Source: Pseudomonadota bacterium (lineage in GTDB: Bacteria > Desulfobacterota > Desulfobulbia > Desulfobulbales > SURF-16). From it: 64,000 nt of DNA. The notes beneath the pieces were generated by a model. The model was not told where the DNA came from, searched no databases, and worked only from the letters and a program-made list of their open reading frames with translations. The DNA is taken from positions 1-64,000 of the forward strand of contig JAHILF010000141.1 of the NCBI GenBank assembly GCA_018897105.1. The letters are read 5' to 3'. Shown in pieces: positions 483 through 25,876 of the stretch. Position numbers and translations under genes: made by a program. Each line of letters begins with the position of its first letter. The first letter of the stretch is position 1.

Positions 483-1754
483 TCAACCGCAGCCGGTTCC
501 GCCGCCGGTGCAGGCACCTTTTGAGGTGCATTTGTTCTGGCGGCCCTTGAGCTTGCTCAGATCCTTGCCGCTGTATACTGCTTCAAGCCCCATCTCGATA
601 AAGCCGCTCATGGTCACCGGCTTCACCCCCATTTTGCTGAGGATTTCCTTCGGCGCTTCCCCCAGGTCATTGACCAGCACCGCCCGGCAGTCCCTGAGGG
701 ACCGGGCCAGGTTATGCCATCTCTGCGGACCGCCGCCAGGCAGGGACGCGGGCCGTTCCTCAACCATGTTGAAGGTGCCGTCCTCTTTTTGCTCCCAGAT
801 CTGAAAAAGGTTCGCCTCACCCAGATGCTGGTTGACCAGCACACCCTCAAGGGTGGCCACCGCCACATAGGGCCTGTCCTGTTCAGTAACAGGGGGCAGG
901 GAGGCGCAGGCAGACAGGCAGCCGTGCATTTCTTTGCTCTGGTCATGGCCGAGCAGGCCCACGGCATCGGCCCGGCAGCGGGTGCAATGCCGCATCTGGG
1001 GCAGGTATTTCTCCGCCTTTTTGCGTAGCGTCGCCATTTTCTGTTTGCTGGGTTCCGGGATATCGGCAAAGGGGGTGTCCACATTGGGGAACATGGCCAT
1101 GCAGTTAAAGAGATCCGCGCCCAGCTCAGCCATTTTTTTAGCCACCTCTTCTATATGATGATCATTAATGCCCGGGATGGCAATGGTGTTGATCTTGACG
1201 GTGATATCGTGTTCCTTCAGCTTGGTGATGGCCTTGAGTTGTCTGGCGAGGATGAGTTCCGCGGCCTGGATACCGCGGTACACCACGTTGCCGTCCCGCA
1301 CCCATCCGTAAATGTTTTTGATCACATTAGGGTCGACGCCGTTCACCGTCACCGTGACATGGGAGACGTCCAGCTCGGCCAGGGCCTCAACATGGGGGGC
1401 CAGGTTCATGCCATTGCTGGCCAGACAGAGAATCATGTGCGGGTATTTCTCCCGGATCAGCCGCATGGTCTCCAGGGTTTCCTCGGAATTGGCAAAGGGA
1501 TCGCCAGGGCCTGCGATGCCGGCCACCGAAATGCGGGGCTCTCTTTCCAGCACCTTGTCCATGTAAGTGAGGGCCTGCTGCGGGGTGAGTATGGTGCTGG
1601 TTACGCCGGGTCGCGATTCGTTGACACAGTCATATTTCCGGTTACAGTAATTGCATTTGATATTGCATTTCGGGGCAACCGGCAGATGAACCCGGCCGAA
1701 TTGGCCCTTTACCTTGGCATTAAAACAGGGATGGTGACTGTAGTCTTTTTTCAT
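483..1754 (-). CDS. nifB: Nitrogenase cofactor biosynthesis radical SAM protein NifB
   Basis: CNIKCNYCNRKYDC radical SAM motif, AGPGDPFAN, HCTRCRADAVG, C-terminal NifX-like domain. ATG at 1754 with a GGAG RBS is preferred over the TTG at 1799. Confidence 0.95.
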   Translation of the reverse strand: MKKDYSHHPCFNAKVKGQFGRVHLPVAPKCNIKCNYCNRKYDCVNESRPGVTSTILTPQQALTYMDKVLEREPRISVAGIAGPGDPFANSEETLETMRLIREKYPHMILCLASNGMNLAPHVEALAELDVSHVTVTVNGVDPNVIKNIYGWVRDGNVVYRGIQAAELILARQLKAITKLKEHDITVKINTIAIPGINDHHIEEVAKKMAELGADLFNCMAMFPNVDTPFADIPEPSKQKMATLRKKAEKYLPQMRHCTRCRADAVGLLGHDQSKEMHGCLSACASLPPVTEQDRPYVAVATLEGVLVNQHLGEANLFQIWEQKEDGTFNMVEERPASLPGGGPQRWHNLARSLRDCRAVLVNDLGEAPKEILSKMGVKPVTMSGFIEMGLEAVYSGKDLSKLKGRQNKCTSKGACTGGGTGCG

Positions 1755-4814: not shown

Positions 4815-5033
4815 AAAATGAAGGAGGGGGACAATTTTGTCGGAGGTGCCGTGGAAAAATGAGAATATTCCCGATGATGTCAGGATAATTCTGCTGGAGT
4901 ACGGCCAAAAAGAGGGAATATGCGCTTGAACATTGCGCAGATAGCGGGTATTTACTGCATAAATCTTTTGCGCAGTTGAGTATGTTTTTGCTGGAGTAAA
5001 GCTTATGCCTTGGCCATCGGGAGAAGAGTAAAC

Positions 5034-8093: not shown

Positions 8094-8938
8094 GCAATAT
8101 CAAGATATTTGAATCCAAAAAAATTCGATCCATTTGGAACGAGACGGATCATCTGTGGTATTTTTCCGTCATCGATGTGGTTGCGGTGTTAACCGACAGT
8201 CCGAATCCAAAAGACTATTGGTACCGTATCAAGCAACGGGAGAAGATCAGCGGCCTTGAACTGTCGACAATCTGTCGACGGTTCAAACTCGAAGCACCGG
8301 ATGGCAAGTTGCGTGAAACCGACTGCTCGCATGCTGAAGGGCTGCTGCGCATCATCCAGTCCATCCCCTCGCCCAAGGCCGAGCCCTTTAAGCTCTGGCT
8401 GGCCCGAGTCGGCTATGAGCGGCTGGAGGAAATCGAAAACCCGGAGCTGGCCGCCAAACGCATGCGGGAGTTGTACAAGGCCAAAGGCTACAGCGACGAA
8501 TGGATTGAAAAACGGGTGCGCGGCATTGCCATCCGGGACGAACTGACCAACGAGTGGCAGAAGCGCGGGGTGAAGGAGCAAAGAGAATACGCCATTCTCA
8601 CCGCCGAGATCAGCCGTGCCACTTTCGGCATGACGCCTGCGGAGTACAAGGCGTTCAAGAGTCTGGAAAAACCAGCGGACAACCTGCGTGACCACATGAC
8701 AGATCTGGAGCTGATTTTCACCATGTTGGGCGAGGCCTCCACCACCGAGATCGCCCGCAATAAGGATGCCCAGGGCTATGGCGAGAATCGGGGCGCGGCC
8801 ATCGAAGGGGGTACGGTTGCCGGCAATGCCCGCCGGGACTTGGAGAAGAAATCAGGCAAACGGGTGTCGAGCCGGGAGAATTTCAAGGAGCTTCCAGAAG
8901 CGGTTAAGAGGGAGAAAATTGTGAAGAGTGAAGAGTAA
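8090..8938 (+). CDS. BRO-N / DinD-like (phage antirepressor-type N-terminus) protein
   Basis: IRSIWNETDHLWYFSVIDVVAVLTDSPNPKDYWYRIKQRE is a Bro-N signature; overlaps the res stop. Confidence 0.75.
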   Translation: MSNIKIFESKKIRSIWNETDHLWYFSVIDVVAVLTDSPNPKDYWYRIKQREKISGLELSTICRRFKLEAPDGKLRETDCSHAEGLLRIIQSIPSPKAEPFKLWLARVGYERLEEIENPELAAKRMRELYKAKGYSDEWIEKRVRGIAIRDELTNEWQKRGVKEQREYAILTAEISRATFGMTPAEYKAFKSLEKPADNLRDHMTDLELIFTMLGEASTTEIARNKDAQGYGENRGAAIEGGTVAGNARRDLEKKSGKRVSSRENFKELPEAVKREKIVKSEE

Positions 8939-8954
8939 AGAGTAAAGAGTGAAA
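8921..8954. repeat. gtgaagagtgaagagtaaagagtaaagagtgaaa repeat, left arm flanking the four-helix-bundle ORF
   Basis: Related in inverted orientation to aacttcactcttcaccctt at about 9349-9367 and to the arms of the two elements inside mod. Confidence 0.7.
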
Positions 8955-9343
8955 TGTCAGAGCCGAGGAGAGACTTGCCGGAGCGTACGTTTGCGTTTGC
9001 CTGCCGGGTAGTGAAATTGTGCCAGGTGCTTGAACAGGTGCCTGGGGTAAGCCGTACGTTGGCCAACCAGCTCTTAAGGGCCGGGACATCAATCGGCGCC
9101 AACGTCGAAGAGGGGCAAGGCAGCCAGAGCAAGGCGGACTTTATCGCCAAATACTCCATTGCCTGTAAGGAAGCCCGTGAAACCAATTACTGGCTTCGGT
9201 TGCTGGTAGCGACAGAAATTGTAATCGACCTCAAGTTGAAGGACTTGGTTGATGAATCGAATCAGCTTATCGCCATCCTGACATCGATCATCAAGACAGC
9301 CAGAAAAAACCCGGGAAATGCCCCACGTGAGGAGAAAAGGTAA
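8954..9343 (+). CDS. Four helix bundle protein (23S rRNA intervening-sequence protein family)
   Basis: LPERTFAFACRVVKLC...RTLANQLLRAGTSIGANVEEGQGSQSKADFIAKYSIACKEARETNYWLRLL is a family signature. Confidence 0.9.
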   Translation: MSEPRRDLPERTFAFACRVVKLCQVLEQVPGVSRTLANQLLRAGTSIGANVEEGQGSQSKADFIAKYSIACKEARETNYWLRLLVATEIVIDLKLKDLVDESNQLIAILTSIIKTARKNPGNAPREEKR

Positions 9344-9388
9344 TTTCGAACTTCACTCTTCACCCTTTTTGCGACAAGGAACAACAAC

Positions 9389-10276
9389 ATGACCATGAAG
9401 AAGATAGATAGCAAAACCGTGGAAACATTGACCCACGCTGAAGCGAGTCGCAAAAATATCCCCACCGCCGAGCATCAGTCGATCATGCACGAGGCCGAAA
9501 AGAGTTCGGTGCGGGTGGCCTACGAGCGGCGCAACCGCGATCTGGACCCGCAGCTGGTCTGGCGCGGCAAGGACGAGCAGGACTGGTCCGACCTGGTGGT
9601 CCAGGCCCCGCCCCTCTATATCCAGGAAAAAGTCCATCCCAAGGTCTTGATCGACGATCTGCTGCGGCAGACCAGGGTGCAGGAGGAAAGCGGCAAGGCC
9701 CGGCAACTCGATCTCTTTGCCGATTTCAACGGCCTGCCCAGCGAGAGCGCCAGGACCGAATTTTACCAGCACGACGCCCACTGGGCCAACCGCATGATCC
9801 TGGGCGACAGCCTGCAGGTCATGGCAAGTCTTACCGAACGTGAGGGGCTGCGCGGCAAGGTGCAGTGCATCTATTTCGACCCGCCCTACGGCATCAAGTT
9901 CAACTCCAACTTCCAGTGGTCCACCACCAGCCGCGACGTCAAGGACGGCAATGCCGGCCACATCACCCGCGAGCCGGAGCAGGTCAAGGCCTTCCGGGAT
10001 ACCTGGCGGGACGGGATTCACTCCTATCTGACCTATCTGCGGGACCGGCTGACCGTGGCCCGTGATCTGCTGACGGATTCAGGGTCGATTTTTGTGCAGA
10101 TTGGGGATGAGAATGTGCACAGGGTGCGGGCGCTGATGGATGAGGTGTTTGGGGATAGTAACAACATTTCAAGTATCCACTATCTAACGCCGCTGTTGAG
10201 CCTCAACAGCGGCGATAAGCTCGTCCGCGTCAGCGGGCGAGCTTATCAACTAGTAGTCAGACTGCCCAGCATTTAG
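9389..10276 (+). CDS. Type III DNA methyltransferase (Mod), N-terminal part; ORF disrupted by a 59-nt insertion
   Basis: Contains YFDPPYGIKFNSNFQW (DPPY N6-adenine MTase). Reading frame is lost shortly after the insert at 10188-10246. Confidence 0.9.
   Translation: MTMKKIDSKTVETLTHAEASRKNIPTAEHQSIMHEAEKSSVRVAYERRNRDLDPQLVWRGKDEQDWSDLVVQAPPLYIQEKVHPKVLIDDLLRQTRVQEESGKARQLDLFADFNGLPSESARTEFYQHDAHWANRMILGDSLQVMASLTEREGLRGKVQCIYFDPPYGIKFNSNFQWSTTSRDVKDGNAGHITREPEQVKAFRDTWRDGIHSYLTYLRDRLTVARDLLTDSGSIFVQIGDENVHRVRALMDEVFGDSNNISSIHYLTPLLSLNSGDKLVRVSGRAYQLVVRLPSI
10188..10246. repeat. 59-nt double-hairpin insertion inside mod
   Basis: Hairpin 1 has arms 10188-10200/10202-10214 (13 bp). Hairpin 2 has arms 10215-10228/10233-10246 (14 bp including one G-U). 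Removal joins IHYLT to TSSQTAQHLAGIGDTILWYAKN in frame. Confidence 0.85.
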
Positions 10277-10338
10277 CAGGGATCGGTGACACCATCCTCT
10301 GGTATGCGAAAAACAAGAATAGTCTGAAGTTTAGAAAA

Positions 10339-12357
10339 ATGTATAAAGCAAAAGAGGATGAGTCCGGGCAGTACCGATGGGCACAAGACGAGGCCATGAG
10401 AATGAAGAATTATGAGGAAGGCCTATCACGGAATTTCCGGAGATTCAGATACGATCAATTCACATCCCAAACAGGCGGTGCATCGACAACTTTTGAGATA
10501 AAACATCATGGGAAGAGATTTTTTCCAAGTAAAGGGGGGTGGAAAACCAACACTTCAGGTGCATTTAGGCTTGTGAAAGCAGATCGATTATATGGTGTTG
10601 GTAAGACTCTTTCCTACAAGCGTTTCTTCGACGACTTTGCTTCTGTTGCGGTTGATAGTTTATGGACTGATACCCGCATTAGTGGGTTTAGCGACCCTAA
10701 GTTCTATGTAGTTCAAACTGGCGTTAGCGTAATTCAACGCTGCATCCTCATGGCCACCGACCCCGGCGATCTCGTCCTGGACCCCACCTGCGGTTCCGGC
10801 ACCACCGCCTATGTGGCCGAGCAGTGGGGCCGCCGCTGGATCACCATCGACACCTCACGGGTCGCCCTGGCCCTGGCCCGGGCCAGGATCATGGGCGCCC
10901 GCTACTCCTATTACCTGCTGGCCGACTCCAGGGACGGGCAGGAGAAGGAAGCAGAAATCACCCGCACCGTGCCATCGAGCCAGCCCAGCCGGGGCGATAT
11001 CCGCCAGGGTTTTGTCTATGAACGGGTGCCGCACATCACCCTGAAATCCATCGCCAACAACAGCGAAATCGACGTCATCTGGGAAAAATTCCAGGAAAAA
11101 CTCGAGCCTTTACGCCTGCGGCTGAATAGTGAAGTGGGAAGGGTGAAGGGTGAAATGAAAGACAAGGAGGGGCAATCGACTAAATTTCCCTCTTCACCCT
11201 TCCCTCTTCAAACTTCTCTCGCCGAATGGGAGATACCACGCGAGTTCCCCTCGAATTGGCCAATCGAAGCCAAACCACTTCACGAACAGTTCTGGTCGGA
11301 GAGAGTCGCCCGGCAAAAGGCGATCGACGCCTCTATTGGTGCCAAGGCCGAGTTTGAATACCTCTATGACAAACCCTATGAGGACAGGAAAAAGGTGCGG
11401 GTGGCTGGTCCCTTCACCGTTGAGAGCCTGTCGCCGCACCGGGTGCTGGCCGTCGGCGCTGATGACGAGTTGCTCGACACCACGATGGAGCCCAAAGGGA
11501 GCTACGGCGAGGAGCGGGATTTTACCGCCATGATCCTGGAAAACCTGAAAACTGCCGGGGTTCAGCAGGCCCATAAGGAAGACAAGATCACCTTCACCTC
11601 GCTGACCCCCTGGCCCGGCGATCTGGTCTGCGCCGAAGGACGATACGAGGAGAAGAGTGAAGTGGGAAGAGTGAAGAGTGAAAAAAAAGAGGGTGGATCT
11701 GCCGACTTTCATTCTTCACCCTTCACTCTTCAAACTTCAGAAAAGCGCGCAGCGATTTTCGTAGGCCCCGAGTTCGGCACCGTCTCCCGTCCCGATCTGG
11801 TGCAGGCGGCCCGCGAGGCCGGTGATGCCGGGTTTGATGTGCTCATTGCCTGCGCCTTCAACTACGATGCCCACTCCTCCGAGTTCGACAAACTCGGCCG
11901 CATCCCGGTGCTCAAAGCCCGGATGAACGCCGACCTGCACATGGCCGATGACCTCAAGAACACCGGCAAGGGCAATCTCTTTGTCATCTTCGGCGAACCG
12001 GATATCGATATCATCAAGGCAGCGGATGACCAGATCCAGGTCAAGGTCAACGGCGTGGACGTCTTTGACCCCAACTCCGGCGAGGTCAGGAGCGATTCCG
12101 CCGAAGGCATAGCCTGCTGGTTCATCGATACCGACTATAATGAAGAAAGCTTTTTTGTCCGCCACGCCTACTTCCTGGGGTCGGGCGATCCCTACAAGGC
12201 GCTCAAAACCACCCTCAAGGCGGAGATCAACGAAGAAGCCTGGGCAACGCTGAACAGCGACACCTCCCGCCCTTTCGATAAGCCCGAGACCGGGCGGATT
12301 GCGGTCAAGGTGATCAACCACCTGGGCGATGAGGTGATGAAGGTGTTTCGGGTATGA
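10339..12357 (+). CDS. Type III DNA methyltransferase (Mod), C-terminal part
   Basis: DLVLDPTCGSGTTAYVAEQWGRRWITIDTSRVALALARARIMGARYSYYLLADS, and EKRAAIFVGPEFGTVSRPDLVQAAREA. The in-frame continuation starts around 10249 after the insert. Confidence 0.9.
   Translation: MYKAKEDESGQYRWAQDEAMRMKNYEEGLSRNFRRFRYDQFTSQTGGASTTFEIKHHGKRFFPSKGGWKTNTSGAFRLVKADRLYGVGKTLSYKRFFDDFASVAVDSLWTDTRISGFSDPKFYVVQTGVSVIQRCILMATDPGDLVLDPTCGSGTTAYVAEQWGRRWITIDTSRVALALARARIMGARYSYYLLADSRDGQEKEAEITRTVPSSQPSRGDIRQGFVYERVPHITLKSIANNSEIDVIWEKFQEKLEPLRLRLNSEVGRVKGEMKDKEGQSTKFPSSPFPLQTSLAEWEIPREFPSNWPIEAKPLHEQFWSERVARQKAIDASIGAKAEFEYLYDKPYEDRKKVRVAGPFTVESLSPHRVLAVGADDELLDTTMEPKGSYGEERDFTAMILENLKTAGVQQAHKEDKITFTSLTPWPGDLVCAEGRYEEKSEVGRVKSEKKEGGSADFHSSPFTLQTSEKRAAIFVGPEFGTVSRPDLVQAAREAGDAGFDVLIACAFNYDAHSSEFDKLGRIPVLKARMNADLHMADDLKNTGKGNLFVIFGEPDIDIIKAADDQIQVKVNGVDVFDPNSGEVRSDSAEGIACWFIDTDYNEESFFVRHAYFLGSGDPYKALKTTLKAEINEEAWATLNSDTSRPFDKPETGRIAVKVINHLGDEVMKVFRV
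11128..11215. repeat. In-frame palindromic element B in mod (encodes SEVGRVKGEMKDKEGQSTKFPSSPFPLQTS)
   Basis: gaagtgggaagggtgaagggtgaaa ... tttccctcttcacccttccctcttcaaacttc; imperfect inverted arms. Confidence 0.8.
11656..11740. repeat. In-frame palindromic element C in mod (encodes SEVGRVKSEKKEGGSADFHSSPFTLQTS)
   Basis: gtgaagtgggaagagtgaagagtgaaa ... ttcattcttcacccttcactcttcaaacttcag; homologous to element B. Confidence 0.8.
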
Positions 12358-12388
12358 TGGGAAAAATCACTGAATCGGGGGGATTGTT

Positions 12389-15046
12389 ATGACCGGACAA
12401 TATACAAAAGCCAGATTTTGGAAATGCGCCCTGCAAGTCAACCCGGCGGGTTATATAACCTTGCGTGGTAGCGACCACGGCCTGACGGAAGATCAGTACA
12501 ATCAAGAACTGCTGCGTATCGCAAAGGATAACGAGATCAAGGTGATTGGTTGGGCAGATCACGGCAATGTCGATGGTGTGGATGCTATTCGCACGGTCAT
12601 GAATGCCAACGGCATTCTGGTATTCCCGGGTTTTGAGATTTGTTCCACCGAGAAAACGCATTTTGTGTGTCTGTTCTCGGAAGACACCTCAAGAGACCAA
12701 CTTAATCGCTATCTTGGCGCATTAGGTTTGACTGATCCTGATAACGGTGTTTGGCCGTCCAATCTTGGGGGGAATGATCTCCTTGCTAAAGTTGAGGAGC
12801 TAGGCGGTTTCGTTTATGCCGCTCATTGCACCAATGAAAGCGGGATCTTGCGCCAGAAACTCGTTCATGTCTGGCAAAATCCATTGCTCAAGGCCGTACA
12901 GATTCCTGGGGCGCTTGACGACCTAAAAAATGGCGAAAGCAATGGCTATCGTAAAATATTGATAAACGTAGATAGCAACTATCAGCGTGAAAATCAGGTT
13001 GCTATTATCAATGCCAAGGACGTGGCAAAACCCGAAGACTTGGCCGACCAGAAAGCATCCTGTCTGATCAAAATGACCCGGCCATGCTTCGAGTCATTCA
13101 AGCTGGCGTTTCAAGACCCGGAGTCGCGGGTACGGTTGAACAGCGATGTTTCTGAAAAGTATTACTCGCGTATCGAGAGCCTGAAGGTCACGGGTGGCTA
13201 TCTGGATGGGGTTCAAATTGAATTCTCCGAACATTTGAATTCGGTCATTGGCGGGCGCGGGACCGGGAAATCCACGCTGCTTGAGTGCATCCGCTATGCC
13301 TTGCAACTGAAACCCATCGGCAAAAACGCGCAAAAGCAACACGACGAAATCATCAAAGAGAATCTGGGTAAATCCAAAGCGCGAGTAGAGATCGTGATTC
13401 GTTCCGCTCGAATGAATGGCAAGCGTTTTACTGTTGCCAGACGCTATGGCGAAAGTGTCAGTGTGAAAGATGAGAGCGGCAATCTGTCTTCATTTACGCC
13501 TGCGGATTTGCTGCCCGAAATTGAAATCTACGGGCAGAATGAGATTTACGAAATTGCCCAGGACAAGGCCAGCCAGCGCCAATTGCTGACCCGGTTCATG
13601 GATGCTGGAAAACAGGATGGCGAGAGGCGAATCCATGAAACGCTCAGCAAACTGGCGGAGAACAGGAAAAAGTTGATCGAGGCGCAAGGGAATGTGGCAT
13701 CGATTGAAGACGAGGTCGCGCGTCTGCCAAAATTGGAAGAACAGTTAGGGCAATTCAAGTCGTTGGGATTGGAAGAAAAACTGAAAATTGTACCATTGCT
13801 TGAGACGGAAAAGCGCATACGGAAAAGGGGAATAGAGGAAGAAGGCCGGAATCTTGATAAAGCCTTTCAAGCCGTGCGCGACAATCTGCCGGACACTGTA
13901 TTCCTGAGCGATTCCGCCATCAACCATCTCCCCCATGCCGAAAGCCTGCGCAAGTTGCGTGCGGCTTTGGATGATCTTCGTGGTGATGCCGAAGCCCTGC
14001 TGAGCCAATGGCAAGAGAAGTATGTCGCGGCCAAGGCCTTGATTGTGGCCATTGCTGAGGAACTGAATGCGGGTATACAACAGGAAGAGGCTGCACTGGA
14101 AAAAACTTTCAAGGAACTTCCCGCTTTCGAAGGCAAAACCGGCAAGGAAATTGGTATCGAATTTCAGGGTCTGTTGCGAGAGATTGAGAGGATAAGACCA
14201 AAGCAAACGCTTATTGAGAATCGCAGGAAAGTAGTAACCGAGTTCAACCGGCACCGCAAAGCGATTCTTGATGAGCTGTCATCCATTCGGGCGGAACGTT
14301 CCTCTTTATTTGAACGTTCACTGAAAAGCCTGAACAAGCGGCTTTCCGGAAAACTCAAATTGACCGTCAAACCCGAAGCTGAGCGCACTCCGGTCATTCG
14401 ATTCCTCCTGGATTGCAGGCTGGATAGCGTAGCGGAGGGACGGCTTGCCTGGATACGGGAGGCGGATGATTTCTCGCCTGTAAAATTGGCTGAACTGATA
14501 CGCCGTGGTGCCGATGCGCTAAGGGATAGCGGGTGGAGTATCACCTCCACCGTCGCCGAAGCCCTGGCGCGCCTTACCACCGAACAAGTTCTCCGACTTG
14601 AAGAACTGGAATTGCCCGATTTGATCGACATCGAATTGAATACCGCTCATGAGGGACAGGAAAACTTCAAGCCGCTGGATAAACTGTCAACCGGGCAGCA
14701 ATGCACGGCGATTTTGCATTTGTTGCTTCTACAGAATCTTGATCCGCTGATGATGGATCAACCGGAAGATAATCTTGATAATGCCTTTATTGCTGATCGC
14801 ATTGTGGCTGAGTTAAGGTCAGCGAAAATAGCCCGCCAGTTCATTTTCGCAACCCATAACGCCAACATACCGGTGTTCGGGGATGCCGAGTGGATCGGCG
14901 TTTTTGAGGCCCGGGATGGACAAGCCTATATGCCTTCTGAATCGCAAGGCGCCATTGATGTGACGCAAGTTCGTGATAAAGCCGCCGATATTCTTGAAGG
15001 TGGAAAAACGGCTTTCAACCAACGCAAAGCTAAGTATGGCTTTTAA
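12389..15046 (+). CDS. PHP-domain plus SMC/AAA-like ATPase (TrlF / Ppl-like family)
   Basis: N-term GSDHGLTEDQYNQELLRIAKDNEIKVIGWADHGNVDG (PHP-like); IGGRGTGKSTLLECIRYAL (Walker A); coiled coil; LSTGQQCTAILHLLLLQNLDPLMMDQPEDNLDNAFI (ABC signature/Walker B). Confidence 0.82.
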   Translation: MTGQYTKARFWKCALQVNPAGYITLRGSDHGLTEDQYNQELLRIAKDNEIKVIGWADHGNVDGVDAIRTVMNANGILVFPGFEICSTEKTHFVCLFSEDTSRDQLNRYLGALGLTDPDNGVWPSNLGGNDLLAKVEELGGFVYAAHCTNESGILRQKLVHVWQNPLLKAVQIPGALDDLKNGESNGYRKILINVDSNYQRENQVAIINAKDVAKPEDLADQKASCLIKMTRPCFESFKLAFQDPESRVRLNSDVSEKYYSRIESLKVTGGYLDGVQIEFSEHLNSVIGGRGTGKSTLLECIRYALQLKPIGKNAQKQHDEIIKENLGKSKARVEIVIRSARMNGKRFTVARRYGESVSVKDESGNLSSFTPADLLPEIEIYGQNEIYEIAQDKASQRQLLTRFMDAGKQDGERRIHETLSKLAENRKKLIEAQGNVASIEDEVARLPKLEEQLGQFKSLGLEEKLKIVPLLETEKRIRKRGIEEEGRNLDKAFQAVRDNLPDTVFLSDSAINHLPHAESLRKLRAALDDLRGDAEALLSQWQEKYVAAKALIVAIAEELNAGIQQEEAALEKTFKELPAFEGKTGKEIGIEFQGLLREIERIRPKQTLIENRRKVVTEFNRHRKAILDELSSIRAERSSLFERSLKSLNKRLSGKLKLTVKPEAERTPVIRFLLDCRLDSVAEGRLAWIREADDFSPVKLAELIRRGADALRDSGWSITSTVAEALARLTTEQVLRLEELELPDLIDIELNTAHEGQENFKPLDKLSTGQQCTAILHLLLLQNLDPLMMDQPEDNLDNAFIADRIVAELRSAKIARQFIFATHNANIPVFGDAEWIGVFEARDGQAYMPSESQGAIDVTQVRDKAADILEGGKTAFNQRKAKYGF

Positions 15047-15083
15047 GGGCCTGTTATTTAGGAACAGGCACAAAGGTGAATAT

Positions 15084-16325
15084 ATGTTGAAAACTGAATT
15101 ATTGGAGATTCTTGCCAACGGAGAGAATTCAGGTGTGGAATTCAAAAGAGACGATATTCGGCCTGAGCAGTTGGCAAAAGAAATAGTCGCACTGGCAAAT
15201 TTACAAGGCGGCCGAATTTTTCTCGGCGTCGAGGATGATGGGACGATCTCCGGCATCCAGCAACATAACACCCAGGAATGGGTTTTGAACATATTTCGGG
15301 ATAAGGTTTTTCCGCAAATAATCCCCTTTTATGAGGAGATAAAAATTGACGATCAATATCGAGTCGCAGTTATTACGATTGCCCAGGGTATTTCCAAGCC
15401 TTACATGCTGAAACACAATAACCGTGAGGAAATTTATATCCGCATGGGTGATCGTTCTGAGTTGGCCTCCCGTGAACAACAATTGCGGCTGTTTGAAAGC
15501 GGCGGACTTCTTCACGTCGAAGTACTTCCAGTCACGGGAACAGCCTTGGCTCATTTAGACAGAGACCGGCTGAAGTACTATCTGTCAGCCATTATGAGAG
15601 ATCCCGATGTCCCTGTAACAGATGCGGAATGGCAAGAGAGATTGCTGGGTCTCGGCTTTATGGCATCAGACGGTATGGGAAACAGCGTGTGTTCTATAGC
15701 AGGCTTACTCTGTTTCGGTATTAATCCCCGGCAATTTCTTCGGCAGGCAGGCTTGCGGGTCATGGCATTTACAGGAATAGACAAGGAATACCAGGCGCAG
15801 CTTGATGTGGTGATTGATGCCCCGTTTGTTGGCCGTTGGCAAGACGATGGGACAGGGCGAAAACAATTGGTCGATGAAGGATTGATAGAAAAATTTGCAG
15901 CGGCTATCGAACCCTTTATTTCCCAGGAGGCTTCCCACATCGACGAACACATGCGACGTGAAAAAAGCTGGCTTTATCCTTGGGAGGCCGTCCGTGAAAC
16001 AGTCATAAACGCAATCGCCCATAGGGACTGGACAAGATCGGTCGATATCGAAGTAACGAATTATGCAGACCGGCTTGAAGTCATCAGTCCCGGGAAAATG
16101 CCGAACTCAATGACTGTCGACAAAATGATCGCCGGCCAGCGGTCACCGCGAAACCCTCTTATTATGGAAATTCTTCGTGATTATGCCTACGTCGACTCGC
16201 GGGGAATGGGTGTCCGCACCAAGATAATTCCATTGATGAAAAGAGACAACCAGGCAGCCCCGGGGTTTGAGGCAACAGATGATTATCTGAAGACCGTGCT
16301 GCCTCGAAAGAAAGTGGACTCATAA
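15084..16325 (+). CDS. AlbA_2 domain plus HATPase_c-type ATP-binding protein (RecG-like transcriptional regulator family)
   Basis: NGENSGVEFKRDDIRPEQLAKEIVALANLQGGRIFLGVEDDGTISGI; later AVRETVINAIAHRDWTRSVDIEVTNYADRLEVISPG. Confidence 0.85.
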   Translation: MLKTELLEILANGENSGVEFKRDDIRPEQLAKEIVALANLQGGRIFLGVEDDGTISGIQQHNTQEWVLNIFRDKVFPQIIPFYEEIKIDDQYRVAVITIAQGISKPYMLKHNNREEIYIRMGDRSELASREQQLRLFESGGLLHVEVLPVTGTALAHLDRDRLKYYLSAIMRDPDVPVTDAEWQERLLGLGFMASDGMGNSVCSIAGLLCFGINPRQFLRQAGLRVMAFTGIDKEYQAQLDVVIDAPFVGRWQDDGTGRKQLVDEGLIEKFAAAIEPFISQEASHIDEHMRREKSWLYPWEAVRETVINAIAHRDWTRSVDIEVTNYADRLEVISPGKMPNSMTVDKMIAGQRSPRNPLIMEILRDYAYVDSRGMGVRTKIIPLMKRDNQAAPGFEATDDYLKTVLPRKKVDS

Positions 16326-16328
16326 ACG

Positions 16329-18392
16329 ATGAACTTCCGCATCGCCGATACCTTCACCGACAGCCTTGCCAGACTCACCGGCGAAGAGCAGAAGGCGGTC
16401 AAGACCACGGCCTTTGACCTGCAATTGAACCCAGCCAGTCCGGGCATGAGTTTTCACAAACTTGACAACGCCAGGGACAAGAATTTCTGGTCGGTACGGG
16501 TCAGCAGTGATCTGCGCATGATTGTTCATAAAACCTATGACAGTCTACTGCTCTGCTATGTCGATCATCATGACAAAGCCTACCAGTGGGCGGAACGGCG
16601 CAAACTGGAAACCCACCCCAGCACCGGGGCGGCCCAGCTGGTGGAGGTCCGGGAGTCTGTGCAGGAGATCATCATCCCCGTTTATGTGGGGGCTGCGGAG
16701 CCGAAGCCGCCATTGTTTGCCCACATGTCCGACGATAACCTGCTGAGCTACGGAGTGCCGGCGGACTGGCTGGCGGATGTCCGGCGGGCAGACGAGGATT
16801 CGCTTCTGGGTCTGGCCGATCATCTTCCTGCCGAAGCGGCCGAGGCCCTGCTCGACCTGGCTACCGGGGTAACGCCGCAACCGGTTCAACCGGCTGCCGC
16901 AGGCGACAGCCCCTTCGACCACCCCGACGCCCGGCGTCGCTTCCGGGTGATGAGCGATGTCGAGGAACTGGAGCGCGCCCTGGATTATCCGTGGGAGAAA
17001 TGGACCATCTTTCTCCACCCTGCCCAGCGCCAACTGGTGGAGCGCGATTATGGTGGCCCGGTCCGGGTTTCCGGTTCAGCCGGGACCGGCAAGACCATTG
17101 TCGCCCTGCATCGGGCCGTATTTCTGGGCCGCGCCAATCCTGCAAGCAGGGTGCTGCTCACCACCTTTTCCGAGCCTCTGGCCAATGCCCTGCGCACGAA
17201 ACTGTTTCGGCTGATCGGCAATGAACCCCGGCTGGGCGAACGGCTGGATGTCCACTCCATGGATGCCATCGGGCAGCGCATCTATGGCCTGCACTTCGGC
17301 CGGGCGAAGATTGCCGGCCGGAATGTGCTGCGCAATCTGCTGGCCGAGGCATCGGTCAGGGTCGAGGGGCACAAATTCAGCCCGCATTTTCTGCAAACCG
17401 AATGGGAGCTGATCGTTGACGCCTGGCAGCTGGAAACGTGGGAGGCATATCGTGATGTGCCTCGACTGGGACGGAAAACCCGCCTGTCGGAACAGCAGCG
17501 GCAGTTGCTGTGGGCGATATTTGACCAGGTCCGATCACGGTTGCAGTCTGACGGTCTCATGACCACTGCCGCAATGTTCGGCAAGCTGACGGCCCGGTTG
17601 ATCGAAATTGCGCGATCTCCGTTTGATTTTTGCGTGGTGGATGAGGCCCAGGATATCAATGTCCCCCAACTCCGTTTTCTTGCCGCCCTGGCTGGTGGCC
17701 GGCCCAACAGTTTATTTTTCGCTGGTGACCTTGGGCAGCGGATATTTCAACAGCCTTTTTCCTGGAAGGGGCTCGGGGTCGATATCCGCGGCCGCTCCCG
17801 CACCCTGAAGATCAATTATCGCACCTCCCATCAGATCAGGAGGCAGGCCGACCGGTTGCTGGCTCCGGAATTGTCCGATGTGGACGGTATTACCGAAGAA
17901 CGGCGGGGCACCATTTCGGTGTTCAATGGTCCAGGCCCGATTATCAGGGAGTTGGTGAGCAGAGATGAGGAAGCACGGTTCGTCGGCCAATGGTTGCAGG
18001 AGCGGATGGCCGAGGGAATCAAGCCGCATGAGGTGGGGGTGTTCGTACGTTCGGATGCGGAACTGGACAGGGCCGGAAGCGCCGTGGCGCATTCGGCTTT
18101 TCCGTGCAAAATCATTGATGATACCATTGAAACGACAATGGGGTTCATTTCGGTTTGCACCATGCACCTGGCCAAGCGATTGGAGTTTCGTGCCGTGGTT
18201 GTCATGGCCTGCGACGATGAAATCATTCCGCTCCAGGCCCGGATTGAAGCGGTCACCGACAACGCGGATTTGGAAGATGTTTATAATACCGAACGCCATT
18301 TGCTCTATGTCGCCTGCACCCGGGCAAGGGATCATCTGCTGGTGACGAGCGGCGATCTGCCATCGGAATTTCTCGATGATCTGCAGATGTGA
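16329..18392 (+). CDS. RelE/ParE-like N-terminal domain fused to UvrD/Rep-like superfamily 1 helicase
   Basis: N-term MNFRIADTFTDSLARLTGEEQKAVKTTAFDLQLNPASPGMSFHKL...WSVRVSSDLRMIVHK (RelE-like); GSAGTGKTIVALHRAVFL; DEAQDINVPQLRFLAAL; LLYVACTRARDHLLVT. Confidence 0.82.
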   Translation: MNFRIADTFTDSLARLTGEEQKAVKTTAFDLQLNPASPGMSFHKLDNARDKNFWSVRVSSDLRMIVHKTYDSLLLCYVDHHDKAYQWAERRKLETHPSTGAAQLVEVRESVQEIIIPVYVGAAEPKPPLFAHMSDDNLLSYGVPADWLADVRRADEDSLLGLADHLPAEAAEALLDLATGVTPQPVQPAAAGDSPFDHPDARRRFRVMSDVEELERALDYPWEKWTIFLHPAQRQLVERDYGGPVRVSGSAGTGKTIVALHRAVFLGRANPASRVLLTTFSEPLANALRTKLFRLIGNEPRLGERLDVHSMDAIGQRIYGLHFGRAKIAGRNVLRNLLAEASVRVEGHKFSPHFLQTEWELIVDAWQLETWEAYRDVPRLGRKTRLSEQQRQLLWAIFDQVRSRLQSDGLMTTAAMFGKLTARLIEIARSPFDFCVVDEAQDINVPQLRFLAALAGGRPNSLFFAGDLGQRIFQQPFSWKGLGVDIRGRSRTLKINYRTSHQIRRQADRLLAPELSDVDGITEERRGTISVFNGPGPIIRELVSRDEEARFVGQWLQERMAEGIKPHEVGVFVRSDAELDRAGSAVAHSAFPCKIIDDTIETTMGFISVCTMHLAKRLEFRAVVVMACDDEIIPLQARIEAVTDNADLEDVYNTERHLLYVACTRARDHLLVTSGDLPSEFLDDLQM

Positions 18393-18445: not shown

Positions 18446-18913
18446 TTATCGACTCACCAGCTCCTGCAGCTCAATGGCCAGGTTGAGCATGGCCGGGATT
18501 TCCTCCATGGTGGGCGGCTGTCTGTGGTAGGTGTCGAGGTCGCAGATCTCCTGATAGGCGTCAAGGGAGATGAGCCGGTCCTTGATCCCGCCCAGGCGGC
18601 CGGGGAAATGCTCCTCCATGGCTTCCGCCAGATCACGCATGGTGTGGTTATAGGGCAGGTTGCCGCTCTGCATGAGGGCGCCCATCACCAGTTTTTCAAT
18701 GGCCATGGCGATGACGTTGTACAGGATCTCGGCGGTAAAGGCGTGCCGCTGACCGGCAAAGGCGTTACGGGCCGTGGTGAGGTATTGGTCTCCCTCGTGC
18801 AGGTACTCTTCCCAGCCCTTGATGGATTGAAATTTGATATCGCTGAAGCCGATCAGATCGGTTCGGAAAGCGGTGGAAGCCATATCGCTGTTTTTTGGCT
18901 GTGCCGTGGTCAT
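18446..18913 (-). CDS. HEPN-like small protein, last gene of the nifH operon
   Basis: GDQYLTTARNAFAGQRHAFTAEILYNVIAMAIEKLVMGALMQSGNLPYNHTMRDLAEAM resembles HEPN helices. Confidence 0.5.
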   Translation of the reverse strand: MTTAQPKNSDMASTAFRTDLIGFSDIKFQSIKGWEEYLHEGDQYLTTARNAFAGQRHAFTAEILYNVIAMAIEKLVMGALMQSGNLPYNHTMRDLAEAMEEHFPGRLGGIKDRLISLDAYQEICDLDTYHRQPPTMEEIPAMLNLAIELQELVSR

Positions 18914-19412: not shown

Positions 19413-19718
19413 TTACGCGATCAGATACTCTGCCGGCGGCTCTCCGTCTTCGATGCCGTCCAGGATGGCGTCAATGGCCGCGGTGCTGTCCACCCCCTTG
19501 AACCACCAGTTTTCCGGGTGGACCACCATGATGGGGCCTGATTCGCACTGCTTGAGGCAGGTGGTGGCCGTGAGCAGGCAGTCCAGGCCCCGGTCAAGGA
19601 TTTCTTCGTCTATGTACTGCAGAAAGCCGTCGGTCTGTTTGTGGCAGAGGCCTTTGGGGTCTCCGCCGGCCGCCCGGAAGCTCTGGCACACAAGTATCTG
19701 TCGTTTGGGGATTGCCAT
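19413..19718 (-). CDS. (2Fe-2S) ferredoxin (thioredoxin-like fold)
   Basis: MAIPKRQILVCQSFRAAGGDPKGLCHK...DCLLTATTCLKQCESGPIMVVHPENWWFKGV. Confidence 0.85.
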   Translation of the reverse strand: MAIPKRQILVCQSFRAAGGDPKGLCHKQTDGFLQYIDEEILDRGLDCLLTATTCLKQCESGPIMVVHPENWWFKGVDSTAAIDAILDGIEDGEPPAEYLIA

Positions 19719-19749: not shown

Positions 19750-20934
19750 TTATGAACGCCGCTCGGTGCGGCATTGTTTTCCTTTTTTGCCTCCGCCGTA
19801 CAGCACGTCAACCGTGCCTTCCACATTGCCGTCGGTAACGAGCACGGTAATGCCGCTGCTGGCTAAAACCTTTCTTGGATTGTCTCCTGCTCCGGAGGTC
19901 AGCAGGGCAAAGCAGTCGGTGAATGAATCTGCCAGCTTCTCCCATCTGGCGCCTCCGCCGCCCGGTTCAGGTAATGATCGGCTGGCGAGCAGGCAGGGGA
20001 GCCCGTCTTCCCGGGGGCCGTAAATCAGGGCCTTGGTTGCCTGGCCGAGATGAAGATCGATATCCATGCCGTTTGCGCTGACTACGGCAACATTGGGCCG
20101 GGCTGCACTCGGTTGCGGCAGCATGGCTGCTGCAGGGACCGCAACACCTGCTTCTGCCGTGGCGGTATTCAGGCAAGACGCTTGTTCTGCTGTCTCTGTG
20201 GTAAGATATTGGGCGGCAAGCTTAGCAAGGGTCGCCATGCAGGCACTGTCAGGCTCATTGGAAGAGCCCATCTCATCCACGCAGGATGTGCAGGGAACCA
20301 GTATCATCTTTTCTGCTCCCCAAGCACCCATGCGTTCGGCGATTGCCGCCACCTGGCTGTCATTGATGCCGGGATAGACCGTGGTTCTGATGGTGACCTT
20401 GAGCCCGGCCCGCTGCAAGGCGGAAATAGCCCGCTGCTGTTCATCCACCAGCATGCCGGCCGCCTGACTCAAGGGGATTGTCCTGGTGCCTGGGCGGATC
20501 CAGGCATAGAGTTTTTTCACCACTTCGGGATCAACCGCCTCCACCTGCAGGGTGACTGTATTTACCCCGTGTTCGGCCAAGGCTTGGGCATACTGCTCTC
20601 CATTGATGCCCAGGGTGGTGATGCCAAGAGGCAGGTCAGCATGTCTGCGGCGTATCAGGCTGATAGTCTCCAGGGTGGGCTGGACTTCAGCCAGGGGATC
20701 ACCCGGGCCGCTGATGTGCGCCTCACCAATGTCTGCTCCCTGGCTGATCATATTGTCCAGCCAGCTCATGGCTTCCTGGGGCAGCATGGCCCGGGGAGCA
20801 TTGGCAGCGGGAGCAGAAAGCAATCTTGCATTGGCGCGGGCAGCCACCGGCAGATCAATTCGTTTTCCTGGCAGCCTGGGGGATTCTGCGCTGAAACAGG
20901 TTCGGGCAGGTGTACAGGCGGGTGCGGTATTCAT
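19750..20934 (-). CDS. NifB-like paralog lacking the radical-SAM cysteines, with a NifX-like C-terminal domain
   Basis: From MNTAPACTP..: CFSAESPRLPGKRIDLPVAARANARLLSAPAANAPRAMLPQEAM aligns to NifB CFNAKVKGQFGRVHLPVAPKCNIKCNYCNRKYDC..; ISGPGDPLAE is retained; C-term NVAVVSANGMDIDLHLGQATKALIYG. Confidence 0.85.
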   Translation of the reverse strand: MNTAPACTPARTCFSAESPRLPGKRIDLPVAARANARLLSAPAANAPRAMLPQEAMSWLDNMISQGADIGEAHISGPGDPLAEVQPTLETISLIRRRHADLPLGITTLGINGEQYAQALAEHGVNTVTLQVEAVDPEVVKKLYAWIRPGTRTIPLSQAAGMLVDEQQRAISALQRAGLKVTIRTTVYPGINDSQVAAIAERMGAWGAEKMILVPCTSCVDEMGSSNEPDSACMATLAKLAAQYLTTETAEQASCLNTATAEAGVAVPAAAMLPQPSAARPNVAVVSANGMDIDLHLGQATKALIYGPREDGLPCLLASRSLPEPGGGGARWEKLADSFTDCFALLTSGAGDNPRKVLASSGITVLVTDGNVEGTVDVLYGGGKKGKQCRTERRS

Positions 20935-20971
20935 AGGTTGTGCCCCCTCAAATTCCAAATAAATTGATAAA

Positions 20972-21003: not shown

Positions 21004-22377
21004 CTACATGACAAGCTCGAATTGCTGTTCAGAATCATCCCGGTCCCTGCGGTCCAGCAGTACGCCCAGGATTTTTTCCAGCAGCCTGAGGGCACCCTTG
21101 TAAGCAACCGTGGGGAAGTACTGATGCCCCTGGCGGTCCAGGATGGGGAAGCCCCAACGGACAAAGGGGATATCTTCATCACGGGCAATGTACTTGCAGT
21201 AGGTATTGCCGATGATCAGGTCAACCGGATCATTCTTGATCCACTGATGGAGCAGGAACATGTCCCCGGCAGCCTTGACGTTGACTTCATAAGGCAGATC
21301 CTCGGTGATTTCCCTGATGCGCTTTTCAAAGGCCTTGCCCGGGGTGCCGGTGACGATGTGGGTGGGCCACATGTCAAGGGTGACCAGGAATTCGGTCATG
21401 CTGATCACTTGATCAGGATCACCCACCAGCGCCACCTTTTTGTGGTAGAGATACTGGTGCATGTCGGAGATCATGTCCACCAGCTGCCCCCGTTCCATGG
21501 ACAGCTCATCTGCCACCGTTACCCCGCCGACGATGCGCAGGGCGTCGATGAACCGGTCGGTGGCCTTGAGACCGAACGGCATGTCCAGCACCTTGCAGGG
21601 CACCTTGTTCTGAGTATCCAGTTCGCGGGCGGCGACCGCCGAGCACCATTCGCCCAGGGCCAGGGTGCCGATGGCATCTCCGGTTGCCTTCAGTTCCTCA
21701 ATGGTGGTTCCGCCATCGGGAAACATCTTGTACTCGCCGGACAGGGGGCCGTTCAGCACACCCGAGGTATCCGGGAAAAGAATGGTGCTGACCCCGAGCA
21801 TCTTGGTGATGCGTTTGATCTCTTCCATGTCGCACGGTTCCACCCAGCCGGGGATGATGTTTACCTTGCCGTTTTTTTTGCCGGTGCTCTCAGCCAGCCC
21901 CGCCATGGACTTGACCATGGTGGAAAATCCCGTCACATGGGAGCCCACATAACTCGGCGTGGAGGCGCTGATCATGTATTTGCCCTTGGGGATCTTGCCC
22001 TCGGTCAGCGCTTTTTTTCTGATCTGCTTCAGGTCGTCGCCGATGGTCTCGGACAGGCAGGTGGTGTGGACGGCAATGATGTCAGGTTCATAGACGCTGA
22101 AGATGTTTTCGATGGCCTGCAGCATATTGGCCTGCCCGCCGAATACCGATGCGCCCTCGGTGAAGGAACTGGTTGCTGCGGAGATGGGCTCCTTGTAGTG
22201 CCGGGTCAATGTGCTCCGGTGGTAGGCGCAGCATCCCTGGGAGCCATGACTGTGCGGCAGGCACCCGTGGATGCCCAGTGCCGCATACATGGCACCGATG
22301 GGCTGGCAGGTCTTGGCCGGATTGATCATCAAGGCGCTGCGCTCGCTGATTTCTTTTGGTGTATGTCGTAATAGCAT
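21004..22377 (-). CDS. nifK: Nitrogenase MoFe protein beta chain
   Basis: INPAKTCQPIGAMYAALGIHGCLPHSHGSQGCCAYHRSTLTRHYKEP; TTCLSETIGDDL. Confidence 0.95.
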   Translation of the reverse strand: MLLRHTPKEISERSALMINPAKTCQPIGAMYAALGIHGCLPHSHGSQGCCAYHRSTLTRHYKEPISAATSSFTEGASVFGGQANMLQAIENIFSVYEPDIIAVHTTCLSETIGDDLKQIRKKALTEGKIPKGKYMISASTPSYVGSHVTGFSTMVKSMAGLAESTGKKNGKVNIIPGWVEPCDMEEIKRITKMLGVSTILFPDTSGVLNGPLSGEYKMFPDGGTTIEELKATGDAIGTLALGEWCSAVAARELDTQNKVPCKVLDMPFGLKATDRFIDALRIVGGVTVADELSMERGQLVDMISDMHQYLYHKKVALVGDPDQVISMTEFLVTLDMWPTHIVTGTPGKAFEKRIREITEDLPYEVNVKAAGDMFLLHQWIKNDPVDLIIGNTYCKYIARDEDIPFVRWGFPILDRQGHQYFPTVAYKGALRLLEKILGVLLDRRDRDDSEQQFELVM

Positions 22378-22492: not shown

Positions 22493-24139
22493 CTATTCCC
22501 AACCGTAAGTGGCTGAAAGTTGCGGGTTTTCCTGCCAGGGCGCCTTCATGTAGCTCCAGACCTTGCTGTTCACCAGCCGGTCGATTTCCTTGTAGAAGTT
22601 GACGGCACCCTTGAACCCGGCGTAAGGACCGCCGGAGTCATAGCTGTGCAGCTGCTTCATGGGAATGCCCAGTTTCTGGATGGAATATTTTTCCTTGATG
22701 CCGGCGCAGAAAATATCCGGTTTCATCAGCTCCACCAGTTTCTCGGCCTCGTATTGATTCAGGTCGTCAATCACCAGGGTACCTTTTCCCATGTCAGGGA
22801 TCAGCCCGTCGTAATCTTTGAATTTATAGCCCGCAGCTTCCATGGCCTGCAGTTCTTCCGGACTTTTACGCGGGTTGTAGCGCGTCGGGTCCGCTTCCAC
22901 CTCAATCTCTTCGATGTTGCGGCTGTCTGCGTCAACCGTCAGATTGGGAAGGACCTGACGACCTTCATAATCGTCGCGGTGGGCAAACTCGTAACCGGCG
23001 GAGATGGTTTTCATACCCATCTCACTGAAGAGTTCCTGGTAATGGTGGGCCCGGGAGCCGCCGACGAACATCATGGCGGTCTTGCCCTCGGTGCGGGGCA
23101 GGACATCCTGCCTGGCCGCCTCAACAGCGGGCATCTCTTCTTTGATCACCGCCTCGACCCGGTCAATGAGTTCCTGGTCGCCGAAGTACTCGGCGATCTT
23201 GCGCAGGGACCTGGACGTGGCCTTGGCGCTGATAAAGTTCACCTTGATCCAGGGAATACCGTATTTCGTTTCCAGCATGTCGGCCACATAGTTAATGGAG
23301 CGGTGGCACATGACGGTGTTCAGATCGGCGGTGTGGGCCGAGGCGAACTGGTCATAGGTCGAGTTGCCGGAAAAGGTAGCGATGTTGGTGATGCCGCATT
23401 TCTTGAAAACGCGGTCAATCTCGAAGCCGTCGCCGCCGATATTGTATTCGCCGAGCAGGTTGATCTTATATTTGCCTGGTTTCACCTCGTCGTTTTCACC
23501 GACGATATGGCGGAAAACCTGGTTGTTGGCAATATGATGTCCCGCTGACTGGCTGACGCCTTTGTAGCCTTCGCAGCTGAAGGCGTACACATTGCAGTCC
23601 CCGAATTTCTCCTTCATCCTTTTGGTAACGGTATGGATGTCGTCACCGATAAGACCCACCGGGCAGGTGGCGAAAACGGCGATTGATTTCGGGTGAAACA
23701 GGTCATACGCTTCCTGGATAGCCTTTTCCAATTTTTTCTCCCCGCCGAAAATGATGTCCGAGTCCTGCATGTCGGTGGAAAAGGCGTAAGGCATGTAGTT
23801 TTCACCGTCCGGGCCGGCGTCGGTCTGGTTGCGCCTGGTGAGCCAGGCGTAAAAGCTGCAGCCGATGGGGCCGTGCACCAGGTTGATGATGTCGCGGGTG
23901 GGGCCCATGATAACACCCTTGCAGCCGGCATAGGTGCAACCGCGCATGGTGATGATGCCTGGAGTGGTGCGTACGTTGGCCGAAATCTCCGGGGTTTCGT
24001 TTTCCAGGGCCTCATTGATCATTATCTGTTTGGCGCGTTTGCGTGCTACCTTGGGCGGATACTTTGCCAGCAGCTGGGCCTTGACATCGGCCGGATCCCA
24101 CTGCACCATTTTTCTTTTTTTCTTTAGGATTGTAGACAT
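22493..24139 (-). CDS. nifD: Nitrogenase MoFe protein alpha chain
   Basis: TMRGCTYAGCKGVIMGPTRDIINLVHGPIGCSFYAWLTRRNQ; SCEGYKGVSQSAGHHIANN. Confidence 0.96.
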   Translation of the reverse strand: MSTILKKKRKMVQWDPADVKAQLLAKYPPKVARKRAKQIMINEALENETPEISANVRTTPGIITMRGCTYAGCKGVIMGPTRDIINLVHGPIGCSFYAWLTRRNQTDAGPDGENYMPYAFSTDMQDSDIIFGGEKKLEKAIQEAYDLFHPKSIAVFATCPVGLIGDDIHTVTKRMKEKFGDCNVYAFSCEGYKGVSQSAGHHIANNQVFRHIVGENDEVKPGKYKINLLGEYNIGGDGFEIDRVFKKCGITNIATFSGNSTYDQFASAHTADLNTVMCHRSINYVADMLETKYGIPWIKVNFISAKATSRSLRKIAEYFGDQELIDRVEAVIKEEMPAVEAARQDVLPRTEGKTAMMFVGGSRAHHYQELFSEMGMKTISAGYEFAHRDDYEGRQVLPNLTVDADSRNIEEIEVEADPTRYNPRKSPEELQAMEAAGYKFKDYDGLIPDMGKGTLVIDDLNQYEAEKLVELMKPDIFCAGIKEKYSIQKLGIPMKQLHSYDSGGPYAGFKGAVNFYKEIDRLVNSKVWSYMKAPWQENPQLSATYGWE

Positions 24140-24164: not shown

Positions 24165-24539
24165 TTAGACGATGGACTTGATGCCCTTCTCGCCTGTGCG
24201 GACCCGGACGGCATCAGTCACCGGCAGGACAAAAATCTTGCCGTCACCCGGCTTGCCGGTCTGGTTGGTCTCGATGAGTGCCTGCACCACCTCGTCGACG
24301 AGATCGTCTTTTATCACCACCGTCACCATGCGCTTGGGATACAGTTTTCCTTTTTCTCCGAGCAGAGAGGCTGCCTCCTCGTAACCCTGCTGGGCTCCAT
24401 CGAGAACCGCGGGATTGATGAAGCCTTTGCCGCGGCCATGGGCTTCATGGGCAAAGAAGGCGTCGATACCGATATCGGTCAAGGCCTGCTTGGTCTGATT
24501 CATCATGTTTATTCGCACGATGGCGATCACCTCTTTCAT
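24165..24539 (-). CDS. nifI2: Nitrogen-regulatory PII-like protein NifI2
   Basis: PII family; MKEVIAIVRINMMNQTKQALTDIGIDAFFAHEAHGRGKG..GDGKIFVLPV; lies between nifI1 and nifD. Confidence 0.9.
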   Translation of the reverse strand: MKEVIAIVRINMMNQTKQALTDIGIDAFFAHEAHGRGKGFINPAVLDGAQQGYEEAASLLGEKGKLYPKRMVTVVIKDDLVDEVVQALIETNQTGKPGDGKIFVLPVTDAVRVRTGEKGIKSIV

Positions 24540-24892
24540 GCTGAGACCTCCTCGGGGGGAGCGGCGGTTTCCTTGACGCCGGAGCTGATGGTATATGATT
24601 CTTCCACCTCGCTGACAAAGATCTTGCCGTCACCGAATGCGCCTTTGGTGCCGGAACGGGCCGTATCCATGATGGTCTGGATGACGAAATCCTTATCTTC
24701 GCTTCTGACAACGCTCATCAGCATCATTTTGGGAATTTCGTCGTAGGTGACCTCTCCGATTTTAATGCCGCGCTGCTTGCCGCGGCCGGCCACCGAATAT
24801 TTGGTCACAGCAGGAAAGCCGGCATCCATGAGTGCGGCAAGGATTTTGTCTGCTCTTTCCGGTCTGACAATTGCTCTGATCATAGTCAACAT
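24536..24892 (-). CDS. nifI1: Nitrogen-regulatory PII-like protein NifI1
   Basis: MIRAIVRPERADKILAALMDAGFPAVTKYSVAGRGKQRGIKIG; downstream of nifH. Confidence 0.9.
   Translation of the reverse strand: MLTMIRAIVRPERADKILAALMDAGFPAVTKYSVAGRGKQRGIKIGEVTYDEIPKMMLMSVVRSEDKDFVIQTIMDTARSGTKGAFGDGKIFVSEVEESYTISSGVKETAAPPEEVSA

Positions 24893-25003: not shown

Positions 25004-25876
<873 letters not shown>

Follow-up and report, generated by a model that had tools for sequence, protein, structure and literature searches.

In nifHDKTY clusters, nifY follows nifK. To our knowledge, the carriers of FeMo-cofactor to apo-NifDK are largely unworked outside Azotobacter and Klebsiella, and minimal gene sets for engineered nitrogen fixation depend on knowing them.

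NafY and NifY bind apo-NifDK before cofactor insertion, and Azotobacter vinelandii NifY binds the cofactor-less MoFe protein (PMC6016461). NafY consists of an all-helical N-terminal domain and a C-terminal NifX-like core, in which H121 is the key FeMo-co ligand and Cys166 has been reported to be unimportant for FeMo-co binding (PMC8496260). In NifX, a short single domain without a barrel, His35 coordinates an apical iron of NifB-co when the latter is passed to NifEN (PMC13128457). A. vinelandii NifY also has a NifX-like C-terminal domain, which lacks the cofactor-binding histidine (PMC13128457); a NifB-type barrel has not been reported for NifY.

NifB of the two-domain type (TIGR01290) joins a radical-SAM barrel to a C-terminal NifX-like domain. 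The latter is dispensable in Klebsiella NifB, and in vitro activity has been described for stand-alone NifB (PMC5715403). Ligands have been assigned to the K1 and K2 substrate clusters in Methanosarcina acetivorans NifB (PMC6053413). A 2017 survey used six fingerprint motifs (HPC, Cx3Cx2C, ExRP, AGPG, TxTxN and Cx2CRxDAxG) and reduced the NifB-annotated set by 28%, at least one motif being missing from the proteins removed; most of these were without Cx3Cx2C and were taken as misannotated NifX (PMC5715403).

Here we describe a NifB paralog without the radical-SAM cysteines. Its parts, the NifB barrel and the NifX domain, are known; the combination, a cysteine-less NifB fixed beside nifK, appears to be new. 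The earlier note had allowed that an established family might already describe it. No description of it was found among the curated families searched and the openly accessible full-text literature.

A second NifB-like gene in the nifHDK operon

The window (the whole stretch of DNA analysed, 64,000 nt) contains a canonical nifB gene (P0002) at 483..1754 on the minus strand, which encodes the cysteine motif and scored 380.7 bits against the NCBIfam NifB model TIGR01290 (cut-off 343.65). The paralog gene (P0001) lies at 19753..20934, also on the minus strand, with its ATG at 20934 and its stop codon at 19750-19752. A Shine-Dalgarno-like GAGGGGG, read directly from the sequence, is found at 20943..20949 (minus strand), 8 nt before the ATG. 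The reading frame is open and encodes 394 aa, as the earlier note had said of 19750-20934 without stating the strand.

A local double frameshift that hid the cysteines was considered, since another frame at the motif is rich in cysteine and reads CPRQCKIAFCSRCQC. The orthologs, on the other hand, keep the in-frame reading LPVAPRANxRIRFA. This indicated that the reading frame is right.

The paralog gene is preceded in the operon by nifH (25004..25828), nifI1 (24536..24892), nifI2 (24165..24539), nifD (22493..24133) and nifK (21004..22371), all on the minus strand; the two nifI genes, of the PII family, were assigned by position. The spacing from nifK to the paralog gene is 69 nt, and 31 nt separate the latter from the next gene downstream (19413..19718, minus strand). 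This co-conserved gene had no Pfam match and was labeled [2Fe-2S] ferredoxin from the N. vulgaris gene in the same place, annotated as '(2Fe-2S) ferredoxin domain-containing protein'. It is presumably of the thioredoxin-like type.

The order nifH-nifI1-nifI2-nifD-nifK-paralog-ferredoxin, mostly followed by genes for a GNAT and a HEPN-like protein, recurred in almost every locus whose contig extended far enough to show it, and in further families of the phylum as well. The paralog is thus encoded with nifHDK and not with nifE-nifN-nifB.

Among 146 relatives, sampled from the same order and nearer, nifD was found in 98 and the paralog was first scored in 89; both were present in 86 and neither in 45 (Fisher p 8e-23, a value inflated by kinship). 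Adding a full-length paralog in G142 and a barrel-less one in G107 raised the counts to 91 with the paralog and 88 with both. Most paralog-bearing genomes also showed a canonical NifB match, and some genomes had a small NifX-like gene after nifB as well.

Four relatives with nifDK (G024, G029, G044 and G046) lacked the paralog; in G046, about 20 codons of its tail are left as a remnant. The paralog is therefore not needed by every diazotroph of the order. It was also absent from the well-studied N. vulgaris plasmids, where the ferredoxin gene comes straight after nifK; the 'radical SAM protein' matches there were canonical NifB after nifN.

In one relative (G117, L067 8731-9885), the paralog-ferredoxin-GNAT block stands apart from nifHDK and adjoins apparent PII and ammonium-transporter genes; nifD is on another contig.

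Loss of the NifB motifs

The paralog and the NifB of the window aligned over nearly the whole length of both (BLASTP, 32% identity over 398 columns, E 9e-63). In this alignment LPVAPKCNIKCNYC was paired with LPVAARANARLLSA, which placed A34, L38 and A41 at the positions of the three radical-SAM cysteines. Thus ANARLLSA (residues 34-41, 20812..20835, minus strand) stands in place of CNIKCNYC. The loss of all three cluster-binding cysteines, read earlier from the sequence, was therefore borne out, and so was that of CTRCRADAVG, a segment without counterpart in the paralog.

The same reading had the SGPGDP segment, a TIM-barrel-like body and the NifX-like C-terminal domain retained, and all three were found. 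GPGD (residues 76-79, 20698..20709, minus strand) is the sole NifB barrel signature kept. The barrel is a degenerate one (about residues 21-251, 20182..20874, minus strand, from Pfam and the AF2 model). Its match to PF04055 (Radical_SAM) covers a partial TIM barrel (47.8 bits, threshold 29.5) and begins only at profile position 22, past the cysteine end. The NifX-like domain with its Lys-rich tail (residues 272-394, 19753..20121, minus strand) matched PF02579 (Nitro_FeMo-Co; 34.6 bits, threshold 26.3, E 2.4e-8) and is the most conserved part of the protein. The whole paralog scored 115.4 bits with TIGR01290, well under the cut-off that the window's own NifB passes.

The radical-SAM motif CxxxCxxC was present in none of 109 distinct orthologs, compared with 43 of 44 NifB proteins collected in the same way; the exception was a truncated fragment. 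The six fingerprint motifs were scored on 107 paralogs and 58 NifB proteins, and only the GPG of AGPG survived in the paralogs (at least 105/107, the Ala being variable). The H and P of HPC were not conserved, and a Cys aligned with the HPC cysteine in 53/107. The ExRP loop was deleted in 106/107, the second T and the N of TxTxN were replaced in most by Leu and Asp, and no position of Cx2CRxDAxG was conserved.

The ligands of the K1 and K2 clusters, by the M. acetivorans assignment (PMC6053413), were mostly lost. Thirty NifB-invariant positions were lost in the paralogs and 32 invariant positions were common to both; the barrel residues replaced include N114 (Leu), T136 (Leu) and N189 (Arg/Gln). 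No conserved set of three cysteines was found in the paralogs, and the ligands for a site-differentiated [4Fe-4S] cluster are gone. Judged from these sequences, radical-SAM chemistry has almost certainly been lost, and the paralog is very probably a radical-SAM pseudoenzyme derived from NifB.

A single clade under purifying selection

Ortholog identity in the 146 genomes was mostly 40-96%, well apart by score from NifB (about 31-36%). The earlier note had asked whether close relatives carry the CxxxCxxC motif. None did, including the nearest (96, 62 and 53% identical).

A maximum-likelihood tree of 98 proteins was built with the motif columns left out. All 46 cysteine-less rows fell on one side of one branch (support 100/100), and the split was also present in 100% of the bootstrap trees checked. 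The check set out in the earlier note, whether cysteine-less members form a clade and stay beside nifK, thus came out positive, the gene adjoining nifK in nearly every mapped locus. The clade is old and spans Desulfobulbales, Desulfovibrionaceae and Desulfarculaceae. Among the named hosts are Desulfobulbus alkaliphilus, Desulfopila aestuarii, Desulfosediminicola flagellatus, Pseudodesulfovibrio pelocollis and Candidatus Electrothrix, together with Desulfarculaceae and Desulfobacteraceae MAGs.

The dN/dS ratio of the paralog was 0.10-0.33 in nine pairs, which indicated purifying selection; these are whole-gene values only, the domain splits of the L086-L088 and L103-L111 pairs being possibly misplaced. 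Sequencing error and recent decay were ruled out by the orthologs, all without the triad, together with the single clade and the purifying selection. The earlier judgement that this is not simple decay therefore stands.

Over 20 loci, the mean identity of the paralog was 39% in the barrel and 62% in the NifX-like domain. In NifB from the same loci, on the other hand, it was 66% and 58%. This inversion indicated that selection has shifted from the catalytic to the carrier domain. The barrel of the paralog evolves faster, yet it is under purifying selection.

Fold and the NifX-like domain

The fold was modelled with AF2 (pLDDT 84.7, pTM 0.73), a check proposed in the earlier note. The best Foldseek matches of the model were NifB barrels (6y1x, 7jma, 7jmb and 7bi7; TM 0.75-0.92 by target length), the N-terminal part being a NifB-type barrel, and it matched NifX over part of its length.

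Searched against solved structures, the profile of the C-terminal domain matched core-NafY (1p90) and the NifX of the NifENX cryo-EM structure (9ian). By residue count in the profile alignment, His295 of the paralog (codon 20050..20052, minus strand) aligned with NifX His35 and NafY His121. It was invariant in 107/107 paralogs. Its equivalent in the C-terminal domain of NifB was also invariant (58/58), although Klebsiella NifB can do without that domain; retention of the histidine is therefore no proof of cofactor carriage. The paralog is in this respect a natural separation-of-function case for the role of the dispensable domain.

The tail LYGGGKKGKxCxK was strongly conserved. Cys314 was conserved in 48/51 paralogs and Cys341 in all 107. 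Cys341 was rejected as a specific cofactor ligand, since it aligns with NafY Cys166, reported to be unimportant (PMC8496260).

With NCBIfam models, the C-terminal domain of NifB itself matched 15 of 15 members (best E 2.6e-10) and NifX 8 of 15 (best E 5.5e-4); TIGR02663 (NifX) gave no match over its 112-bit cut-off in the 146 relatives. The domain is thus nearer to that of NifB, although it shares its fold and histidine position with NifX.

The closest known systems each resemble the paralog in part. NifB has the same domain order and barrel fold, with GPGD and a histidine-bearing NifX-like domain. It differs in having the radical-SAM cysteines, the ExRP loop and the full K1/K2 ligands, and in which of the two domains is the better conserved. 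NafY shares the two-domain plan and the FeMo-co histidine (H121 at the H295 position), but its helical N-terminal domain contrasts with the degenerate NifB barrel found here. DIMCO_N (PF16844) was not among the Pfam matches of the paralog. A search with this model of the 146 relatives and two nif plasmids gave no match, and the positive controls were silent as well, so that absence of NafY is not implied.

In G107, a frame of 145 aa lies between nifK and the ferredoxin gene. A paralog-like leader, MQIIPFPKPGGPC, is fused in frame to a NifX-like domain that keeps the histidine, and the barrel is absent. The domain grouped with the paralogs (159.6 bits, against at most 106 for NifB domains). The domain search of the 146 genomes gave no second barrel-less case, and G107 is a draft genome, in which an assembly error is possible. 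The short form in G107, the remnant in G046 and the four absences indicated that the gene is useful but dispensable, and that the NifX-like domain outlasts the rest of the protein.

Proposed role

The earlier note had proposed a NifB-derived pseudoenzyme acting as a NifX/NafY-like chaperone or scaffold. Its first half is well supported. The second half we favor as an inference, on the grounds of the single-origin clade beside nifK, the purifying selection, the invariant histidine and the barrel-less relative.

Rather than making the nitrogenase cofactor, the paralog most likely passes it on or protects it. From its sequence and position, it may act as a NafY/NifY/NifX-like cofactor escort or as a prop for apo-NifDK, in either case as a chaperone. 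On balance we think it probable that a duplicated NifB has become a pseudoenzyme that now escorts the cofactor in maturation of the Mo-nitrogenase, in an accessory role to NifDK like that of NafY.

The NifX-like domain would use His295 to hold either NifB-co or, as seems more likely, FeMo-co, and the Lys-rich tail may assist. The degenerate barrel may serve as a docking module for apo-NifDK or NifEN, as the N-terminal domain of NafY does. Because its gene comes right after nifK in the nifHDK operon, the paralog would act on or close to apo-NifDK and not at NifB.

Some observations weigh against this escort reading. Besides the invariant histidine of NifB itself and the four relatives without the gene, the small NifX-like gene after nifB in some genomes means that the role is not obviously vacant. 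Escort by the C-terminal domain alone appears inadequate, because the barrel is also under purifying selection. By a slight preference, we regard the whole radical-SAM barrel, its clusters lost, as reused for cofactor handling or client docking in a distinct, undescribed maturation factor of many sulfate-reducing diazotrophs and cable bacteria.

A simple NifY-like structural prop for apo-NifDK, in which the histidine is not used for the cofactor, is an unlikely alternative to the escort. The place after nifK and the binding of cofactor-less MoFe protein by A. vinelandii NifY (PMC6016461) would fit it, and so would the lack of the cofactor-binding histidine in the NifX-like domain of that NifY (PMC13128457). 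Every paralog, however, keeps this histidine.

Equally unlikely is a pseudoenzyme partner of NifB, which would regulate NifB or hold its product until NifEN is free, in the manner of pseudo-subunits of other enzyme families. The likeness to NifB in length, fold and domain order and the presence of a canonical NifB match in most of the same genomes would suit a partner, but the gene travels with nifHDK, NifB is active on its own in vitro (PMC5715403), and the barrel, the expected site of a NifB-like interface, is the least conserved part of the paralog.

We consider it less likely still that the paralog carries a metal cluster or binds SAM by another ligand set, as an enzyme or a sensor. GPGD and the N of PGIND, both from barrel motifs of NifB, are kept, Cys314 and Cys341 are conserved, and about half of the paralogs have a Cys at the HPC cysteine position. 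Against this, there is no conserved three-cysteine set, Cys341 falls at the unimportant Cys166 of NafY (PMC8496260), and N114, T136 and N189 of the NifB barrel are replaced.

Decay of a duplicated nifB, or a motif altered by faulty sequencing or assembly, would agree with the fast-evolving barrel, the loss in a few relatives and the G046 remnant, but it is hardly tenable, being contradicted by a frame that stays open in nearly all of the roughly 100 genomes, a fixed position, one clade, a dN/dS well under 1 and the invariant residues.

The conserved cysteine-less NifB that major anaerobic diazotrophs encode with nifHDK offers a concrete candidate for a cofactor carrier. It also carries a warning for annotation: by similarity alone the paralog resembles NifB or a radical-SAM protein, and profile-based nif counts may score it as a second NifB. 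Members of this family may have been hidden among the exclusions of the 2017 survey (PMC5715403).

Other features of the nif cluster

The NifX-like gene after nifB in the window (125-316, minus strand) encodes 64 aa, compared with 104 aa in the close relative G005; it is truncated here and lies near the contig end.

The gene that comes after the GNAT gene in most nif operons of this kind (18449-18913 in the window, minus strand) encodes a 155-aa protein without a Pfam match. Its AF2 model (pLDDT 87) was weakly HEPN-like (best Foldseek E 0.005). In L060, a Nif11-domain gene (11875-12093) lies between the HEPN-like gene and nifE, and similar short frames were seen in L069, L074 and L223.

In the window, the region between the HEPN-like gene and nifE holds a block of plus-strand genes (5010-18392). 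PADLOC matches in this block were to type III restriction-modification, a PDC-S13 candidate, a Ppl-like ATPase and a UvrD-like helicase. The corresponding gap is only about 3 kb in G005, which suggested that a defence-like island has entered the nif cluster. Within it, 9389-10276 and 10339-12357 (plus strand) matched consecutive segments of a single type III methyltransferase model (PDLC03632), so that a frameshift or stop appears to have split this methyltransferase gene.
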